Source: a virus. From it: a stretch of 43,938 nt of DNA. The notes beneath the pieces were generated by a model, which made no database searches, was not told the DNA's origin, and saw nothing but the letters and a program-made list of their open reading frames with translations. This document shows, piece by piece, positions 1 to 34,624 of the stretch. The position numbers and the translations under genes are program-made. The stretch is from the IMG/VR virus record IMGVR_UViG_3300010373_000070, positions 1 through 43,938 of that record; one strand, given 5' to 3'. Every line of letters starts with the position of its first letter. Within the stretch, counting starts at the first letter, position 1.

Positions 1-31
1 ATCCTAGGACCAGAACGAACAGCAGTAGCAT
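1..31 (-). CDS. Start of a protein with a hydrophobic N-terminus (partial)
   Basis: Only the first ten codons are in the window; the gene continues beyond the left edge. They read MLLLFVLVLG, a strongly hydrophobic start that would suit a signal peptide or membrane anchor. A GAGGG Shine-Dalgarno-like sequence lies 4 nt before the ATG, and the phage promoter motif lies 20 nt upstream on the same strand. By position it would be the next gene of the head/virion operon. Nothing more can be said about its function. An alternative start in another frame cannot be excluded from so few codons. Confidence 0.3.
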   Translation of the reverse strand, partial: MLLLFVLVLG

Positions 32-1563: not shown

Positions 1564-1578
1564 TCAGATCTAAGATTG

Positions 1579-4711: not shown

Positions 4712-4738
4712 AGTGATTCCTTCTTGGGAAGATTGCGG

Positions 4739-8394: not shown

Positions 8395-9388
8395 ACTTCA
8401 CTCGTTCTTGCAACAGCTCTCGGAGGACGCCTTTGTCGGTGCCATACACCGGCTCATATTCGTCAACCCACTTCTCGAATGCCACTGCGACGCCTTCCGA
8501 TTCCTTTACCTTGGGCTGGTCGAGCTGGTCGACAAACGTGCGCACTCTGCAACCCATTCCTCGATAGATCGAGGAGCGGCTATCGACGTACGTCTGGCTA
8601 CCGTAAATGTCGACACGCCACTCGTGCTTCGGATCGAGATAGGTCGGCGGTACTGCCCCACCAACTTCGCGATCTTCGAAGCAGTTGATCTTGCGGCATA
8701 CGCTGCCAGTATCGAATTTCGTTCGCTTTGCGATCGAGCCATTTTTATTAAAGTCCACCAGCCATATTGCACGTTCCGTATTTGCGTCCGAGAGGGTTCG
8801 CCAACGCGGAGCCCCTACATACCAGACCTTTGAGAATTCTTGTGGTGCGTGAATATGACCCGATATGATTTGTACCTGTGGAATTAGATTAGGGTCCGGG
8901 CCATGTTTGTCGTAAAATCCGTTATCATAAGCTACACCATTAAATGTCTGATGACAGAAAATGGTGTGGACCGTTGGGTACTCCTTGCAGAGCTTCACAA
9001 ACTCCTCGGGATCATCCATGTACGATACGAACAACATCGTAGGATTGTCGATACCGTTCGTGTACATCTTGAACGGCTGAAAGACAACCTGCGTCTGATG
9101 ATTATGGGCAAGCATCGAGCTTGCCTTCGAGTGCGCGGATCCCGGCTTGTCGTGATTGCCGATGAGCGAGATCGACGGAACCTTGGCTTCCGCCAGTCTT
9201 CCGTAGAGCTGGAGCCAGAAGTACTGAACCTCGGCGTGAATGATAGCGTGGGTGTGGTATTGATCACCCATGAAGAGAACCGTCGCTTGGTTCTCAGAAG
9301 CGACCTTGACGATTAGGTCTGCTAGTCGTCGGCAGTCATCCAGATCCGAAGGCTCAGCGTGGTAGTCACCAACGATGAGCAGACGCAT
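8384..9388 (-). CDS. SbcD/Mre11-like exonuclease subunit (T4 gp47-like)
   Basis: A calcineurin-type metallophosphoesterase of about 334 residues. The metal-binding motifs are in order: GDYHAE near the N-terminus, FMGDQYHTH, LIGNHDKPG, FCHQTF and ISGHIHAP. Family members pair with the SbcC/Rad50-like ATPase as an ATP-driven nuclease for end processing and recombination-dependent replication; the likely partner is encoded at 16892-18733 in the other arm. The reading frame is open upstream, but I chose the ATG at 9388: it places the first motif at residue 7 and forms a TAATG overlap with the preceding stop. The frame extends to 9445 without stronger evidence for use. Confidence 0.8.
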   Translation of the reverse strand: MRLLIVGDYHAEPSDLDDCRRLADLIVKVASENQATVLFMGDQYHTHAIIHAEVQYFWLQLYGRLAEAKVPSISLIGNHDKPGSAHSKASSMLAHNHQTQVVFQPFKMYTNGIDNPTMLFVSYMDDPEEFVKLCKEYPTVHTIFCHQTFNGVAYDNGFYDKHGPDPNLIPQVQIISGHIHAPQEFSKVWYVGAPRWRTLSDANTERAIWLVDFNKNGSIAKRTKFDTGSVCRKINCFEDREVGGAVPPTYLDPKHEWRVDIYGSQTYVDSRSSIYRGMGCRVRTFVDQLDQPKVKESEGVAVAFEKWVDEYEPVYGTDKGVLRELLQERVKYGQ

Positions 9389-9714
9389 TACGGATTGACG
9401 GGTGCGGAGGTTTCGGCCGGAGTTTGCGGCAACTCGATGGCGCAAATCATCTGACGCGGAATCATGATGAACTTGGAGCCGTCGTCTGCCTCAAGAACCT
9501 CAGAGGCCCACTGGTGCTTCATCGTGTCGCCCTTGACGTACACGGTCGTGCCTGCGGCAACGATGGTGCCGTCATTGAAGCGAGCCTCGGCGACGGTCGT
9601 GAGCTTGGTGAGCTTGGTCGCCTGCTTGATCATGGCGACGCCACGCTGGGTAGAGGTTGTGACGTTTACTTCGGAGAATGGGGTCGTAGCGACCCAGTCG
9701 TTGACGGTAATCAT
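9388..9714 (-). CDS. Possible GroES-like co-chaperonin
   Basis: A 108-residue protein that I tentatively read as a phage co-chaperonin (GroES/T4 gp31 type). The outline fits: a strand at the N-terminus (NDWVATTPF), a flexible Ser/Thr-rich stretch followed by a hydrophobic patch (TSTQRGVAMI, about 20-29) where the GroES mobile loop would be, a central NDGTIVAAGTTVYVKGD that resembles the GroES barrel segment, and a final strand MICAIEL like the end of GroES. Similarity is structural and weak. The GroEL-like gene at 13718 makes a partner plausible. It has its own promoter motif 9 nt before the ATG and no Shine-Dalgarno sequence. Confidence 0.4.
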   Translation of the reverse strand: MITVNDWVATTPFSEVNVTTSTQRGVAMIKQATKLTKLTTVAEARFNDGTIVAAGTTVYVKGDTMKHQWASEVLEADDGSKFIMIPRQMICAIELPQTPAETSAPVNP

Positions 9715-9723
9715 GCTAGAAGC

Positions 9724-9734
9724 CTTATAGCGAA
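9724..9734 (-). promoter_or_regulatory. Phage promoter motif TTCGCTATAAG
   Basis: An exact copy just downstream of the sigma-factor stop codon, with 9 nt between the motif and the ATG of the co-chaperonin-like gene. There is no Shine-Dalgarno sequence in those 9 nt, so the mRNA would be almost leaderless. It would start a transcript covering co-chaperonin, SbcD, terminase and head genes. Confidence 0.75.
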
Positions 9735-9738
9735 TCTG

Positions 9739-10746
9739 TTAGAGGCTGAGACCGCGGAGCTTGAGGATCTTTTGCTCCAGGGGAGAGAGTTGAGCGACAG
9801 CCTGCGCGAGTGCCCCCATGCTGTCCATCTCCTCGCATATCACATCTGGCTGCGTTTCACGCGGTGCCTCGAAGCGGTCCTCGATGCGTACCTGATCCTC
9901 GCCTTCCGTGATATTTATTTCGATCGATACACACGACTGAGCTGCAAGGAGGCCGGCTAGCTCTGGTGCTGAAGTGCGGCCAGCTTTTTCGACACCGATG
10001 TTCACACGCTTCGCCAACTCTTCGATCGGCAGCTCTGCATTGCGACCGAGGATTTTGTTGGCTCGGTAGATCTTGCGCTTGTCAACCGGGTAGAAGTGAA
10101 TTTTCGTCTCTGAGTACTCTTCGATGAAGTTACCTGTCATGCGCTGGATCGCGACTGACGGAAACGCTCCTGCATCTGCCGAGGGAACGTACTTGTCCAC
10201 CGCATTCATCAGGCCCTCACAAGCGATGTCAACCAAGTCCATGTAGTCGAGATGAGAGCGAGGCGTGCGACTGAAGAAGATGCGGGCACGACTGATAGCA
10301 AGCGGCAGGTTCATCGTCACCAGCTCATGACGGAGGGTAACGATCTGCTGTGCGATCTTGACGACCTTTGAATTCGGCTTCCACGGATACGAGCCCAATA
10401 CGAATTGGACAAACGTGAAGTTGAAACGAAACTTCTGCAAGCGCTCGACGTCACCGTTCTTCAACGCCTTCGAGATCGAGCGGGTGAAGATGCGCTGGCG
10501 TTCACGGAAGAAGGGACGTGCAGCAAGGATATTGTGCTTGCTGACGTTGATGTAGCGAATGAACGCTTTGTACATCTTGTCGCCGAGAGAATGGTTCTTC
10601 AACGTCTCTCGGAATTCATCTTCGAGGGCGATGAGTGACTTGATCTGTTGCTGCTGACGCTTGTTGAAGTCCTCGGTGTCGCCGTAGCGTTCGATGGCCT
10701 TCTCTAGCGAGACAGCGAATTGACGGAAATGCGTATCGTCGGACAT
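9739..10746 (-). CDS. Sigma-70-family RNA polymerase sigma factor lacking most of region 4
   Basis: A protein of 335 residues. The core matches sigma region 2: LVTMNLPLAISRARIFF, then DYMDLVDIACEGLMNAVDKY (region 2.2, core-binding) and FPSVAIQRMTGNFIEEY (regions 2.3-2.4, -10 melting and recognition). A region 3-like stretch follows (YPVDKRKIYRANKILG, then LPIEELAKRVNIG). The chain ends at LSPLEQKILKLRGLSL, where region 4.1 begins, so the -35-reading helix-turn-helix is absent. The stop is followed directly by the next promoter, so this is not an obvious frameshift. The ATG at 10746 overlaps the helicase stop (TAATG). I infer that it directs the polymerase to the TYCGCTATAAG motif. Confidence 0.75.
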   Translation of the reverse strand: MSDDTHFRQFAVSLEKAIERYGDTEDFNKRQQQQIKSLIALEDEFRETLKNHSLGDKMYKAFIRYINVSKHNILAARPFFRERQRIFTRSISKALKNGDVERLQKFRFNFTFVQFVLGSYPWKPNSKVVKIAQQIVTLRHELVTMNLPLAISRARIFFSRTPRSHLDYMDLVDIACEGLMNAVDKYVPSADAGAFPSVAIQRMTGNFIEEYSETKIHFYPVDKRKIYRANKILGRNAELPIEELAKRVNIGVEKAGRTSAPELAGLLAAQSCVSIEINITEGEDQVRIEDRFEAPRETQPDVICEEMDSMGALAQAVAQLSPLEQKILKLRGLSL

Positions 10747-12856: not shown

Positions 12857-12867
12857 CTTATAGCGAA
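12857..12867 (-). promoter_or_regulatory. Phage promoter motif TTCGCTATAAG, left arm
   Basis: An exact copy, 6 nt before the ATG of the kinase-like gene, so transcription would start at or next to the start codon. It faces away from the copy at 12885-12895, with 17 bp between the two, making a divergent pair at the junction of the arms. Confidence 0.75.
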
Positions 12868-13295: not shown

Positions 13296-13718
13296 ATGAA
13301 GGAAGAAATTCTTAACATCGCCCCTGAGTCAGTTCAGGCGATCGGCGAAGAGAAGCAGAAGGCGACCAAGCGTGGTCGCCCGGCTGGTCAGTTTGACTAT
13401 CACAAGCTCCTCGTCCTCCAGTACCTCCAGAACCACACCAAGACTCACGGCATTCCATTCGAAGGCACCAACGAAGATCTCGCTGAGGCAATCGGCGAGT
13501 GGGGTGAACATTTCCGTGTCGGTGTGTCAGCTCGACAGATCGCTCGCTATTTGCGAAAGCTTCAGGAAGAGACTGCTCCCGATGGGAAGTCTCGTATCGA
13601 AGTAGCCTTGCACCGCTTCAAGGGTGCGAACGGAACGTTCGGCAGTCGTCGAGTTATCCACGTGAACGATCTGCGAGACTTCAAGGTCTCGCACCTCGAC
13701 GGTCAAGCTCAGTCGTAA
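13296..13718 (+). CDS. Putative winged-helix DNA-binding protein
   Basis: A protein of 140 residues with the chosen start. After a basic AT-hook-like patch (TKRGRPAG) comes a helical domain: DYHKLLVLQYLQNHTKTHG, then TNEDLAEAIGE and VSARQIARYLRKLQEE, whose spacing resembles a winged helix with a recognition helix at about residues 84-100. It is likely a transcription regulator or replication accessory. It is the first gene of the right arm beside the control region, which suits a regulator. The frame is open to a GTG at 13233, adding 21 residues. It overlaps the chaperonin start by TAATG. Confidence 0.55.
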   Translation: MKEEILNIAPESVQAIGEEKQKATKRGRPAGQFDYHKLLVLQYLQNHTKTHGIPFEGTNEDLAEAIGEWGEHFRVGVSARQIARYLRKLQEETAPDGKSRIEVALHRFKGANGTFGSRRVIHVNDLRDFKVSHLDGQAQS

Positions 13719-15535
13719 TGGAATACCAGAAAGTCAAGTCAGCACCGAAGGTGATCACCGTCAAGGGTGACGCTCTTCGCAAGCGCATCCTCGGCACCAT
13801 GAACACGGTCAGCTCGATCGTCGGTGGTACTCTCGGTCCGAGCGGCAATCCTGCTCTAATCGAGCGTTTCGAACACGGTCTGCCTCCTCTCATCACGAAG
13901 GACGGTGTCACGGTCATGCGCTCTCTCGGCATGTCCGATCCGACGGACCACTGCATCATGGAAGCTGCACGCGATGCAGCTACCAAGACTGCAAACGAAG
14001 CTGGTGACGGTACGACCACAGCGACGATCCTCGCTGAGGCTTTCGTTCGTCACATCGACGAATTCTGTCGCAAGCATCGCACGATGTCTCCTCAGAAGGT
14101 CGTTCGTACCCTCGAACGAGCATTCAATCGAGTCATCGAGCCCGCTATCCGTGAGCTGTCAATTGACGCTTCGGAAGATCGCAAGCTCCAGACTGCTGTT
14201 GCCAAGATCTCCGCGAACAACGAGGTAGAGCTGGCTGAGAAGGTCATGGAGTGCTTTGAGCTTGTCGGCGACGATGGTAACGTGACGATCCTCGAACGTT
14301 CGGGCCCAACGGGCTACGAAGTCGAGCGTCTCGAAGGCTATCCCATTACCATGGGCTACGAGCAATCGTGCGCGAAGTACTACAGCGCATTCATCAACGA
14401 TGCGTCGACGCAGAAGGTGATCATGGAACGTCCGGTGTTCCTGCTCTACCACGGTGTCATCAACGACATCCAGCCTGTGTTGCCGATCTTGCAGAAAGTC
14501 GGCGACGAGCTTGAGAAGAAGCTCCAGGGCCAGCACACCGACTACGACCACTACAACGTCGTTGTCGTCGCGACCGGCTTCTCTCCTCGCGTGCTCGCAT
14601 CATTTGCTCACGCATCGACTCAGGCCAACTCGATCCGCATCTACCCGCTCGTCGTTCCTCTCACGGCAGCGACGAACGGTCAGGCTCAATTCCTCGACGA
14701 CCTTGCAGCCGTCACTGGCGCGATCGTATTCGATCCTGCTACGCACCCTGCCGATCGTGGCGAGCTTGTGGACCTCGGTCCCGGCGTCGTCTCGTTCGAG
14801 TCGTCTCGTTACCGCTCGATGATCATCGGTCGTGCGACGGGCATCATGGACCCGAACCACGCCGACGCAAACGACTATGAGACGTACGAAGATCGTCTCA
14901 TGAATCGTGTCAGCGAAGTCGAAGCCCTGCTCTCGAATCCAGAGAGTGATTGGGACAAGATCTACCTCCAGGAGCGCGTCGGTAAGCTGACGGGCGGCAT
15001 CGCCAAGCTCCATGTCGTCGGTTCGTCGAACGGCGAGCTGAAGGAAAAGCGCGATCGTGCTGAGGACGCCGTATGTGCCGTCCGCGGTGCAATCAAGCAC
15101 GGATGTCTGCCCGGTGGTGGATGGACGTTGCTCAAGCTCTGCTCGCTGCTATCGGATGAAGATCCGGTCGTGCGTCAGGTTCTCAAGCCGGCCCTCATGG
15201 TCCCGGTCGATCGTCTGCTCCGCAATTGCGGCTTCAATGACGTCGACATTCGTCAGATCCTAGAGCCTGTGCTCGAAGGCATCCGCGATGGCAAGACCGT
15301 CGTCTACGATGCATACGAACACCGTCACGGTGATCCCATCGAGCTAGGCGTCCTTGACTCGACGCCAGCCGTCCTGGAAGCAATCCGCAACTCGATCTCG
15401 ATCGCCTCGCAGCTTGGCACTCTCGGCGGCACCGTCGTGTTCCGTCGCGACGAGACCTTCGAGCGCAGCGAAGCTCACAACGCTCAAGAGTTTGAGCGCA
15501 ACGCAAATATCAACGAAGCAAACCTACGTGCATAA
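13718..15535 (+). CDS. GroEL-like chaperonin (group I type)
   Basis: A 605-residue chaperonin, about 55 residues longer than E. coli GroEL. Nucleotide-site motifs are present: GTLGPSGNP near residue 40, TKDGVTV, GDGTTTATILAEAF with the catalytic Asp, AEDAVCAVRGAI with a second conserved Asp, LPGGGWTLLK, and GVLDSTPAVLEAI near the C-terminus. The GGM tail of GroEL is missing. The apical part (about residues 190-400) is divergent, which may reflect phage substrates. Phage chaperonins are known in some giant phages and fold virion proteins. A possible partner lies at 9388-9714. It starts at a TAATG overlap with no Shine-Dalgarno sequence. Confidence 0.88.
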   Translation: MEYQKVKSAPKVITVKGDALRKRILGTMNTVSSIVGGTLGPSGNPALIERFEHGLPPLITKDGVTVMRSLGMSDPTDHCIMEAARDAATKTANEAGDGTTTATILAEAFVRHIDEFCRKHRTMSPQKVVRTLERAFNRVIEPAIRELSIDASEDRKLQTAVAKISANNEVELAEKVMECFELVGDDGNVTILERSGPTGYEVERLEGYPITMGYEQSCAKYYSAFINDASTQKVIMERPVFLLYHGVINDIQPVLPILQKVGDELEKKLQGQHTDYDHYNVVVVATGFSPRVLASFAHASTQANSIRIYPLVVPLTAATNGQAQFLDDLAAVTGAIVFDPATHPADRGELVDLGPGVVSFESSRYRSMIIGRATGIMDPNHADANDYETYEDRLMNRVSEVEALLSNPESDWDKIYLQERVGKLTGGIAKLHVVGSSNGELKEKRDRAEDAVCAVRGAIKHGCLPGGGWTLLKLCSLLSDEDPVVRQVLKPALMVPVDRLLRNCGFNDVDIRQILEPVLEGIRDGKTVVYDAYEHRHGDPIELGVLDSTPAVLEAIRNSISIASQLGTLGGTVVFRRDETFERSEAHNAQEFERNANINEANLRA

Positions 15536-22648: not shown

Positions 22649-22659
22649 TTCGCTATAAG
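22649..22659 (+). promoter_or_regulatory. Phage promoter motif TTCGCTATAAG
   Basis: An exact copy in the short gap after the reductase gene, 8 nt before the ATG of the next gene, with no ribosome-binding site between. Confidence 0.75.
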
Positions 22660-22667
22660 TACTTTGT

Positions 22668-23078
22668 ATGGCGCGAACAAAAGGCAGTAAGAACAAGGTA
22701 AAGCGCGAATGGAGCTGTCCAGACTGCAAGGAAACAGATCTGGAGAAGAAGTCCACGAGCTATTACTGTCGTTCGTGCGCTTGTGAAAGAGTCAAAATCA
22801 GCAGGCGAGCTGTAAAGAACGAGGTTCTTTCTCAATACTCTGGTGGCGGTTATCCGCACTGCCAGTGCTGTTGGGATCAGCATATCGATTTTCTATCCAT
22901 CGACCATGTAAATGGCGGCGGATCAGAACATCGACGCCAGCTAGGAATGAGTGGCGGGCACTCGTTTTATTCTTGGTTGAAGCGCAATGGATACCCGGAT
23001 GGGTACAGAGTCCTTTGCCACAATTGCAACCAAGGCCGTCAATGTAATAACGGCATTTGTCCGCACGAGGAAGAATAA
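22668..23078 (+). CDS. HNH-like endonuclease with zinc fingers
   Basis: 136 residues. The N-terminus ARTKGSKNK is AT-hook-like and is followed by a zinc finger (CPDC ... CRSC). The nuclease part has CQCC near 65, FLSIDHVNGGG near 75-85, and YRVLCHNCNQGR with a final CPHEE, the pattern of a common phage HNH family. It is the first gene after a promoter motif and overlaps the next gene by TAATG, so unlike the other HNH genes it would head an operon. Confidence 0.75.
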   Translation: MARTKGSKNKVKREWSCPDCKETDLEKKSTSYYCRSCACERVKISRRAVKNEVLSQYSGGGYPHCQCCWDQHIDFLSIDHVNGGGSEHRRQLGMSGGHSFYSWLKRNGYPDGYRVLCHNCNQGRQCNNGICPHEEE

Positions 23079-25637: not shown

Positions 25638-26035
25638 TGCCTGTAGCCACCGAAGTGGACGATCTGGAGCGTCAGATCGTTCGCCTCGAAGAAGAAATCC
25701 GTCGTCGTAAGACGAAGGTTATTCAACTCAGCAACGATATCGAGGAAGCTCACGAGTACGTCGAACGTTGCAAGGCGAGCGCTGATCTCTGTAAAGAGAA
25801 TCTGAAGAAGCTCAAGTCAGAATCGTTGGTGTCACTCGAAGATTTTCGCGACATGCAGAAGCTCTACGAGGACAACATGGATCTGATGATTCAGCACAAG
25901 GCGATCGCTTCCAACAAGATACACGAACGTACGGCTCTTTTGAAAGAGCAGATCCCGTTCCTTGAATCATCACTAAGCGAATGCAAGTGCAAGTTGAGCA
26001 AGTGGGGGCAAGTTGTTCCCTTCAAAATGCGATAA
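25637..26035 (+). CDS. Coiled-coil protein
   Basis: 132 residues, almost entirely predicted coiled coil from its heptad pattern (residues 7-70 and 80-120), with a few Cys residues and a basic end. A GAAGGA sequence precedes the start, which overlaps the preceding stop by TAATG. No family is recognised. It may pair with one of the other small coiled-coil proteins in this stretch. Confidence 0.5.
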   Translation: MPVATEVDDLERQIVRLEEEIRRRKTKVIQLSNDIEEAHEYVERCKASADLCKENLKKLKSESLVSLEDFRDMQKLYEDNMDLMIQHKAIASNKIHERTALLKEQIPFLESSLSECKCKLSKWGQVVPFKMR

Positions 26036-26256
26036 TGACCCCGGAAGAAATGAAGCATATGATTGAGACCGATCCTGATTACATCGCCAGCAAGCGATAC
26101 GGGTATTCTCTCAACACGCTCCTGGAGCGCTACCCTGATGGGTGCCCGGATCGCATTATAGCGAATGTTCTTCAGATGAGCGAAGAGGAAGTGGAGACCG
26201 CCTACCAAGGGATCGTCCGCAAGCTCCGCTCATTGATGAAGGTCGATTCGCTATAA
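26035..26256 (+). CDS. Small helix-turn-helix protein resembling sigma region 4
   Basis: 73 residues from the ATG at 26035, which overlaps the preceding stop (TAATG). The second half, DRIIANVLQMSEEEVETAYQ followed by IVRKLRSLMK, has the spacing of a sigma-factor region 4 helix-turn-helix (IA..L..S...V......RKLR). Residues 1-35 are helical. Because the phage sigma factor at 9739 lacks this region, I suggest this protein could act as a separate region-4 or flap-binding partner, like T4 gp33. That is inference; it may simply be a small DNA-binding regulator. The next promoter motif overlaps its last codons. Confidence 0.4.
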   Translation: MTPEEMKHMIETDPDYIASKRYGYSLNTLLERYPDGCPDRIIANVLQMSEEEVETAYQGIVRKLRSLMKVDSL

Positions 26257-27098: not shown

Positions 27099-27109
27099 TT
27101 CGCTATAAG
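27099..27109 (+). promoter_or_regulatory. Phage promoter motif TTCGCTATAAG, polymerase
   Basis: An exact copy, 10 nt before the ATG of the polymerase gene. The sequence AGAGCTGT follows the motif here and at 19106. No Shine-Dalgarno sequence is visible. Confidence 0.78.
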
Positions 27110-33479: not shown

Positions 33480-33490
33480 TCCGCTATAAG
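33480..33490 (+). promoter_or_regulatory. Phage promoter motif TCCGCTATAAG, recombinase
   Basis: An exact copy two bases after a TAG stop, 9 nt before the ATG of the recombinase gene. No ribosome-binding site lies between. Confidence 0.78.
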
Positions 33491-33499
33491 GCAACTGTA

Positions 33500-34624
33500 A
33501 TGGCAAAAGACTGGCTCTCACGACTCCAGAAGTACGACAACGTTATCAAGGAACACACGAATCCTTTCAACAGCGGCGTTCATTCATCCTCTCCCTCAGC
33601 AGACTTCGTATACGGCAACGGTACGTGGCTTCTGCCGTTTGGTTATTCAGAAGTTCTCTACGGTCCTCCGAAGGGAGGCAAGTCGGTTTTCGTCAAGATG
33701 AAGATCGGCCAGCTTCATCAGGACGATCCTGAAGCATACGCCGTCGTATTCGACACCGAATTCCGTTGGCGCGGTCAGCTCACTCCTGAGAAGGCCAAGG
33801 CATATGGTATCGATATGAAGCGCGTTGTTATCTACGAAGGTAACAACCCGATGGAGATCTTCGATCGCATCGAAAAGAATCTCGCTGCCGACCTCGACGA
33901 TGGCATGCCGCTCAAGTACGTCGTAATCGATTCAGTGTCGGGCGTTCTCGGCCGTCGTGAATTGGATTCAGACACCGTAGAGACGCAGCAAATCGGCGAC
34001 CACGCTCTGACCATTCAGACTGGTCTCAAGCGTATTTTGCCGACACTACGCAAGTACAAGCTCGCTTGTACCCTCGTCACGCAGGTTCGTTCGGAAATGG
34101 ATCAGGCAGCTCTCCGTCGCGATCCGTCGATGAAGGTGAAGATGAATGCTTCGTTCGGTCTCCAGCACTTCGCCGAATACTTCGTGTATGTCGTACCGAA
34201 CCTGAACAAAGAAGGTCGTACGGATATGCTCGGTCGTGAAATGGTCGATGAGTCTGTCACTGACTTGATGGACAAGGGCGAGCGTACGGGCCATAAGATG
34301 CGCGTCATCATGAAGGACTCGTCAATGGGTCCAAAGGGCCGCACTGGCGAATTCACGTTCGACTACAAGCTCGGCGTGATCAACGTCCATGAAGAAGTGT
34401 TCCGTCTTGGTATCGGTCGCGGTGTCATTGAGACACCGTCTAAGGGCTGGTACGAATTCGGTGGCAAGAAGTGGCACGGTGCGAAGGATATGCTTGTTGC
34501 TCTCGAAGGTGACAAGGATATGCAGGCAGCGATCATCAAGGAATTGAAGCTACGCGATATGCGTGGCGACTACCGCGCTGCTGACGCCAAGCTCGATACC
34601 TCAGATATCGAAGCAGTCGAGTAA
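33500..34624 (+). CDS. RecA/UvsX-like recombinase
   Basis: 374 residues, the usual size for RecA and UvsX. Walker A is YGPPKGGKSVF near residue 54 and Walker B LKYVVIDSVSG near 135. A QIGDHALTIQTGLKRILPTL helix and TLVTQVRSEMD (like the RecA motif with the catalytic Gln) follow. It would form filaments on single-stranded DNA for strand exchange and recombination-driven replication. Its neighbours are the SSB-like protein and the primase. The promoter 9 nt upstream and the TAATG link to primase suggest joint expression. Confidence 0.82.
   Translation: MAKDWLSRLQKYDNVIKEHTNPFNSGVHSSSPSADFVYGNGTWLLPFGYSEVLYGPPKGGKSVFVKMKIGQLHQDDPEAYAVVFDTEFRWRGQLTPEKAKAYGIDMKRVVIYEGNNPMEIFDRIEKNLAADLDDGMPLKYVVIDSVSGVLGRRELDSDTVETQQIGDHALTIQTGLKRILPTLRKYKLACTLVTQVRSEMDQAALRRDPSMKVKMNASFGLQHFAEYFVYVVPNLNKEGRTDMLGREMVDESVTDLMDKGERTGHKMRVIMKDSSMGPKGRTGEFTFDYKLGVINVHEEVFRLGIGRGVIETPSKGWYEFGGKKWHGAKDMLVALEGDKDMQAAIIKELKLRDMRGDYRAADAKLDTSDIEAVE

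Follow-up and report, generated by a model that had tools for sequence, protein, structure and literature searches.

The sigma gene and its neighbours

The stretch of DNA analysed here, hereafter the window, is 43,938 nt long and contains on its minus strand an open reading frame for a sigma-70-family protein, with the ATG at 10746 and the stop codon TAA at 9741-9739. The C-terminus of the encoded protein reads LSPLEQKILKLRGLSL. The gene and its immediate neighbours are arranged as follows:

9739..10746, minus strand: sigma-70-family gene, 335 aa, with region 4 reduced to its first helix and no 4.2 helix-turn-helix
10746..12269, minus strand: helicase gene directly upstream of the sigma gene, with overlapping stop and start codons; the order is identical in Myxococcus phage Mx1
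9388..9714, minus strand: small GroES-like gene 3′ of the sigma gene (weak PHROGs match to phrog_3188, E 0.13)

A kinase gene leads this kinase-helicase-sigma gene string. Downstream of the sigma gene, the GroES-like gene (9714->9388) is followed by a phosphoesterase gene and, further off, by the terminase and portal genes. In many relatives the sigma stop codon overlaps the start codon of the next gene (ATGA). A GroEL gene (13718-15535) lies near the GroES-like gene that follows sigma (9388-9714), and the window phage apparently has a chaperonin pair of its own.

A single isolated relative, phage Mx1, was found among 50,697 phage records. Its protein WNM70309.1, annotated as 'putative RNA polymerase sigma factor', is 43% identical over 99% of the length, its end matches that of the window sigma, and the gene order around the sigma gene is alike in the two phages. 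The only other match to the sigma in a tblastn search of the phage collection was MT836798, which has two complete sigma genes of bacterial type, and the one that matched continues for about 35 residues past the stop of the window protein. This record, named 'Bacteriophage sp.', holds its two sigma genes with full region 4 next to each other (L002 990-2659) and looks like bacterial DNA.

Domain content and end point of the sigma protein

The initial annotation, made from the letters alone, had described a sigma factor that keeps regions 2 and 3 and stops where region 4 begins, and it had named structure prediction and profile searches as the means of checking this. Both kinds of evidence agree with that description. 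Pfam recognized no region-4 family in the window protein, only Sigma70_r2 at an E of 0.0014, which does not reach the curated cut-off; the PHROGs profiles assigned amino acids 138-331 to phrog_351, 'RNA polymerase sigma factor' (E 7.7e-18). In PDB profile searches the sigma family matched RpoD/SigA (E 5e-9), with region 2, which serves core binding and -10 reading, present; these alignments start at region 2 and stop at 'LTAREAKVLRMR-G', the start of region 4, their limit being 'LTAREAKVLRMRFG' in the first helix of that region. A complete region 4, consisting of 4.1 and 4.2, was found in the protein neither by Pfam nor by the PDB profile searches. Directly compared with a region-4 profile, the C-terminus aligned weakly, over columns 1-11 when the whole protein and columns 1-23 when the last 60 aa were used.

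An AlphaFold2 model built from 48 sequences reached a mean pLDDT of 85.6. Residues 3-335 of the model align with residues 93-566 of E. coli sigma-70 at a Z of about 13, and the 4.2 helix-turn-helix is absent. The comparison was made with VIA-align 2 on Foldseek matches; as the whole-chain rmsd is high (about 10-13 Å over several domains), the weight lies on rows for single domains, such as 8b3z_C (model residues 137-215, rmsd 1.9). With the borders of regions 1.2, 2, 3, 3.2 and 4.1 on E. coli sigma-70 placed where we take them to be, this alignment makes the N-terminal part region 1.2 and its surroundings, followed by regions 2, 3, 3.2 and helix 4.1. Region 3 and the 3.2 linker are thus covered twice, by profile alignments that run to region 4.1 and by the structural alignment to sigma-70 residue 566. 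The part missing relative to sigma-70 amounts to about the last 47 residues, that is, the 4.2 helix-turn-helix. Going by the model, the protein is a sigma factor with the layout of a bacterial housekeeping sigma (regions 1.2, 2, 3 and 3.2), truncated within region 4 behind helix 4.1, and a protein cut at this point would be unable to read a -35 element on its own.

Relatives of the gene were collected from 59 loci, 57 of them viral and two in bacterial MAG contigs, which left 52 distinct sequences after removal of identical ones. One of these, L057, runs off its contig and was left out of the count of end points. All 51 distinct complete relatives stop 3-12 residues past the conserved G of the helix [KR][ILVF]L.[LMW].G, and an end point shared so uniformly indicates that the truncation is no accident. 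It also bears on the reading that the gene is damaged or mis-assembled and lost region 4 through a frameshift or a sequencing error. The short C-terminus, taken alone, speaks for such damage; the conserved end point contradicts it, the next gene begins at or just past the sigma stop, and we give this reading practically no chance. The frameshift or pseudogene interpretation was rejected accordingly, as the initial annotation had anticipated when it pointed to the promoter motif located, by our count, 4 nt past the stop; its statement that region 4.2, the reader of the -35 element, is missing extends to the 51 complete relatives.

Two relatives, L064 (4998-7238) and L065 (466-2706), carry a large in-frame insert in the sigma gene at the conserved YS|ET motif on the boundary between regions 2 and 3. 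The insert of L064 matches Pfam Intein_splicing (E 3.2e-10). Both insert-bearing sigmas have the same C-terminal end as the other relatives.

Two promoter-type motifs and their candidate readers

The motif TYCGCTATAAG, called class A here, occurs in the window at 13 exact sites, and at 17 sites if up to one mismatch is allowed, compared to 0.76 expected. Among them are:

9724..9734, minus strand: TTCGCTATAAG, between the sigma stop (4 nt after it) and the GroES-like gene (ATG 9714)
12857..12867, minus strand: TTCGCTATAAG, 6 nt ahead of the kinase gene with which the kinase-helicase-sigma string begins
27099..27109, plus strand: class A site ahead of the DNA polymerase III alpha gene
33480..33490, plus strand: class A site ahead of the RecA-like gene

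G004, a related genome, has 49 copies of the word TTCGCTAT, with 0.6 expected. The logo of these 49 sites is conserved from -20 to -7 (GATTCGCTATnnG), and all columns upstream stay at or below 0.3 bit. An ATG follows TCGCTAT exactly 9 nt on at 25 of 58 G004 sites, and within 6-26 nt at 40 of the 58. This fixed spacing, together with conservation restricted to -20 to -7, argues for a genuine promoter-type motif that lacks a -35 element. As the ATG at 9 nt coincides with the predicted start point, the resulting mRNAs would be leaderless. Both promoter classes described here very often place an ATG at or near the predicted start (window 9714-9734, 22649-22668 and 33480-33500; L072-L080), and leaderless mRNAs look common in these phages.

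The initial annotation had paired this motif with the truncated sigma, which would read TYCGCTATAAG as an extended -10 promoter. The strong over-representation of the motif in the window, the lack of -35 information at the 49 G004 sites with their conservation from -20 to -7, the position of one copy directly past the sigma gene and of another before its gene string, and the presence of the motif in L013, L014, L015 and L044, whose sigmas are the most similar, are all compatible with this pairing. The distribution of the motif speaks against it. Class A was found in the window, L004, the G004 genome and a few other loci, and most relatives that share the sigma show no excess of it before open reading frames (0-3 sites in G005, G006, G012, G014, G016 and Mx1); the number of TTCGCTAT copies per genome is 0-5 in G007, G008, G009 and G017. 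Before the core genes of the window and G004, class A precedes replication genes (6 of 25) rather than late genes (0 of 31).

The motif occurs, moreover, where host-type promoters of the form TTGAC-16..18-TAnnnT are nearly absent, with none of these in the window and three in G004 compared to 17-45 in other genomes. Set against a reversed-sequence control, the host-type hits numbered 22 versus 5 in G006, 32 versus 5 in G016, 41 versus 10 in Mx1, 22 versus 3 in G009, 17 versus 3 in G008, 25 versus 1 in G007, 44 versus 12 in G017 and 45 versus 23 in G005; the AT-rich genomes G014 (37 versus 23) and G012 (20 versus 34) showed little or no enrichment. Mx1 differs from the window in just this respect, using TTGAC/TAnnnT promoters (41 hits) and not TYCGCTATAAG. 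A repeat of Mx1, AGATCCGCTA, was considered as a class A candidate and dismissed, since by eye it sits in the spacer and -10 element of host-type TTGACA-17-TAGTAT promoters.

That class A is found in genomes short of host-type promoters is in line with an early promoter recognized by the host enzyme. Class A therefore probably stands in for host-type promoters, as the early promoter of one lineage that the hosts' own holoenzyme would read. We rejected TYCGCTATAAG as the target of the sigma because few relatives have the motif, because it belongs to early and replication genes and because it replaces host-type promoters; in addition, the genomes with class A also retain the second motif, YAATCTT. 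That the truncated sigma nevertheless reads class A appears improbable to us. What stands of the initial proposal is a real promoter-type motif without a -35 element, and its more general expectation that promoters of this kind exist in these phages is borne out by the G004 logo and by the pooled sites described below.

The second motif (class B) was noticed in G004, where the word CGCAATCTT occurs 23 times, 22 times on the plus and once on the minus strand, so that 22 copies share the orientation of the structural genes. In other genomes, too, CGCAATCTT is seen in the sequence ahead of late genes. A genome-by-genome scan for over-represented words brought up YAATCTT in G004 only. In G016 (L117-L125), other words such as TTGCGGAGTGA and AGGCTTATATT are repeated, with 9-10 copies each. 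The window holds class B sites at these positions:

4730..4735, minus strand: CAATCT(T), 18 nt before the ATG of gene 4711->3731
1573..1578, minus strand: CAATCT(T), directly 3′ of the portal gene and 9 nt before ATG 1563

YAATCT was counted from -80 to +40 of core genes, and windows shorter than 60 nt were dropped. It was present at 73 of 192 late genes and 5 of 102 replication genes, and at 12 of 192 late genes when the opposite strand was read; both gene sets were picked from the Mx1 annotation and include hypothetical genes, and sites in related genomes are not independent. As YAATCT had been chosen after reading the upstream regions of several genomes, four held-out genomes were tested, yielding 43 of 108 late genes, 0 of 49 replication genes and 1 of 108 on the opposite strand. 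Enrichment at late genes was weaker in G012 and G014, the most AT-rich relatives (11 of 46 versus 1 of 21, p 0.09). Upstream of the ortholog of window gene 4711->3731, YAATCT lay within 60 nt at all 16 loci (14 distinct) that had a placeable gene start, among the 59 loci searched.

Pooling of 204 YAATCT sites placed the information at -12 to -6 (YAATCTT); positions -17 to -13 retain a faint trace, and from -67 to -22 no column is conserved (maximum 0.04 bit). TTGACA at -35 distance was not in excess, with 29 occurrences versus 29 in the control zone (152 sites). An ATG follows within 8 nt at 68 of the 204 sites, and among the 96 sites with an ATG at least 14 nt on, a Shine-Dalgarno-like word, loosely defined by four letters, is present at 60.

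Since YAATCTT and the truncated sigma are both family-wide and class A is not, YAATCTT is the better match for the sigma and, on this comparison of genomes, its likelier target. A family-wide sigma without 4.2 fits a family-wide late promoter without a -35 element, which we regard as the best explanation of the two distributions. From this co-distribution we infer the role of the sigma as reader of YAATCTT. The sigma would most likely be made early from the kinase-helicase-sigma gene string, would bind the host core RNA polymerase and would direct late transcription from YAATCTT as a -10-type element alone; transcription would start about 6-8 nt after the motif and the mRNAs would often be leaderless. 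We hold this account, in which the truncated sigma and the host core serve promoters made of a -10 element only, with moderate confidence.

Several searches bear on the other participants. They covered 18 records. The RNA polymerase beta domain PF00562 was found in none of the 18, and the host core was therefore taken as the partner. A second sigma was not found either, with PF04542 (Sigma70_r2) above cut-off in 0 of 18 records; of nine sub-threshold hits seven fell in the truncated sigma, and the other two were weak (an 87-codon frame in G016 and a 983-codon frame in G006). A region 4 encoded elsewhere was not recognized by Pfam, as PF04545 and PF08281 scored above threshold in none of the 18 records, and in 14 of 14 control genomes. 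Bacterial clamp domains were found in 0 of 18 records, and so was the T4-type clamp PF02916, for which the sensitivity of the search is unproven as the control genomes include no T4.

Alternatively, a host sigma together with a phage co-factor might read YAATCTT, leaving the truncated sigma as a competitor, a sigma-remodelling factor or a repressor of host transcription. The best-conserved bases of the ordinary -10 element are A-11 and T-7. Both are retained in YAATCT, so that a host sigma acting with a phage activator is conceivable, and the link of the truncated sigma to YAATCTT consists entirely of co-distribution. Against this, the 204 pooled sites have no conserved activator box upstream of -22; the truncated sigma retains every region for DNA melting and -10 reading, which would be superfluous in a mere competitor, and this dedicated sigma exists family-wide. 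We consider this alternative unlikely.

A possible source of the missing 4.2 half, and known systems

One further feature of the window concerns the part of region 4 that the sigma lacks:

26035..26256, plus strand: 'p80', 73 aa, similar to sigma region 4 over the profile columns from 10 (of 51) on, with an acidic recognition helix

An alignment of 13 p80 rows was compared by hhalign with a region-4 profile made of 20 domains, 18 from two bacterial MAGs and two from MT836798. The match had a probability of 91.7% and spanned columns 10-49 of 51, which is everything except helix 4.1; against 11 LuxR domains from the two bacterial MAGs the value was 34%. Among 112 conserved clusters compared with the region-4 profile, p80 alone exceeded 17%. 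Its score was reached by 0 of 200 column shuffles, and the result holds without the LuxR-like member L180. Two sub-threshold PF04545 hits, noticed afterwards, lie inside p80 (G017:25682-25789, E 0.016; G013:82511-82585, E 0.056). The p80 gene is present in 23 of 28 records, comprising all 18 of those formed by the window, Mx1 and 16 large contigs (132-182 kb), and 5 of 10 shorter contigs; Mx1 was its only hit in the phage collection, and the related-locus search with p80 returned two contigs only. In Mx1 the p80 homologue (OR576727 157455-157697, minus strand) has no CDS of its own, and an overlapping hypothetical protein is annotated instead.

Some results count against p80 as the other half of region 4. 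The best match of p80 among PDB sequences was of LuxR type (E 0.008), with a sigma factor only at E 1.5, and Pfam assigned GerE to three and Sigma70_r4 to two of the 13 members. Comparison with the profile of the truncated sigma gave no match (2%). The structure model is poor (pLDDT 61, three sequences). The p80 gene adjoins the DNA polymerase gene, and a role in replication is therefore possible. Over 12 residues, the recognition helix has a net charge of -2 to -6 in the 13 rows, compared to 0 to +4 in 18 of the 20 region-4 domains, those that could be parsed.

These similarities raise the possibility, which we put forward tentatively and regard as rather less probable than not, that the sigma is severed inside region 4, with helix 4.1 on the 335-aa sigma and the 4.2 half represented by p80, the two together reading only YAATCTT. 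Its recognition helix having turned acidic, p80 would then be able to occupy the beta flap in the manner of region 4 and unable to read DNA. A holoenzyme with sigma and p80 would amount to a gp55/gp33-like division of labour derived from a severed housekeeping-type sigma.

Phage sigma factors without region 4 are already known as a kind from T4 and phiEco32. The anatomy, phage group, late motif and candidate partner described here were not met in the literature searched: the phrase 'Myxococcus phage Mx1' was not found, and no paper was recognized, from titles and the openings of abstracts, as describing the phage family of the window sigma. A separate, widespread phage group, with contigs of about 132-182 kb and Mx1 as its one isolate, thus has a near-complete housekeeping-type sigma minus the -35 reader, alongside late promoters without a -35 element. 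This offers a natural test of promoter opening by a holoenzyme without region 4.2, and YAATCTT is usable as a late-promoter motif for annotating these phages. If p80 is truly the other half, the sigma would be split at a new place.

The initial annotation had cited T4 gp55 as a precedent. The likeness is one of function, as gp55 is the late sigma of a large tailed phage, lacks region 4 and reads only a -10-like element (PMC7892883, PMC2988020, in the portions available). The precedent fails in anatomy. The available text of PMC7892883 describes gp55 as a region-2 domain only, with a helix-loop-helix and a clamp-binding tail, whereas the window sigma has regions 1.2, 2, 3, 3.2 and helix 4.1; the gp55-family layout of region 2 without region 3 does not apply to a model that covers sigma-70 residues 93-566. 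In T4, gp55 works with the sliding clamp gp45 and the co-activator gp33; the latter takes the position of region 4 on the beta flap, according to the accessible parts of both sources.

A second likeness is to gp36 of phiEco32, another phage sigma without recognizable region 4 that serves single-element promoters. The excerpts of PMC8948821 state that gp36 is without homology to region 4, which explains these promoters, and that the element tAATGTAtA precedes middle and late genes with transcription starts 6-8 nt downstream. The promoter element and the phage group differ from those of the window family, and homology to gp36 did not emerge from the tblastn search, in which the sigma matched only Mx1 and MT836798 in a collection assumed to include phiEco32 and no gp36 profile was used. 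The candidate split is paralleled by SigO-RsoA of Bacillus subtilis, a sigma distributed over two proteins, with sigma2-sigma3 on one and sigma4 on the other in the part of PMC10141391 available; the window pair would differ from it by a split inside region 4, an acidic recognition helix in the small protein and promoters without a -35 element.
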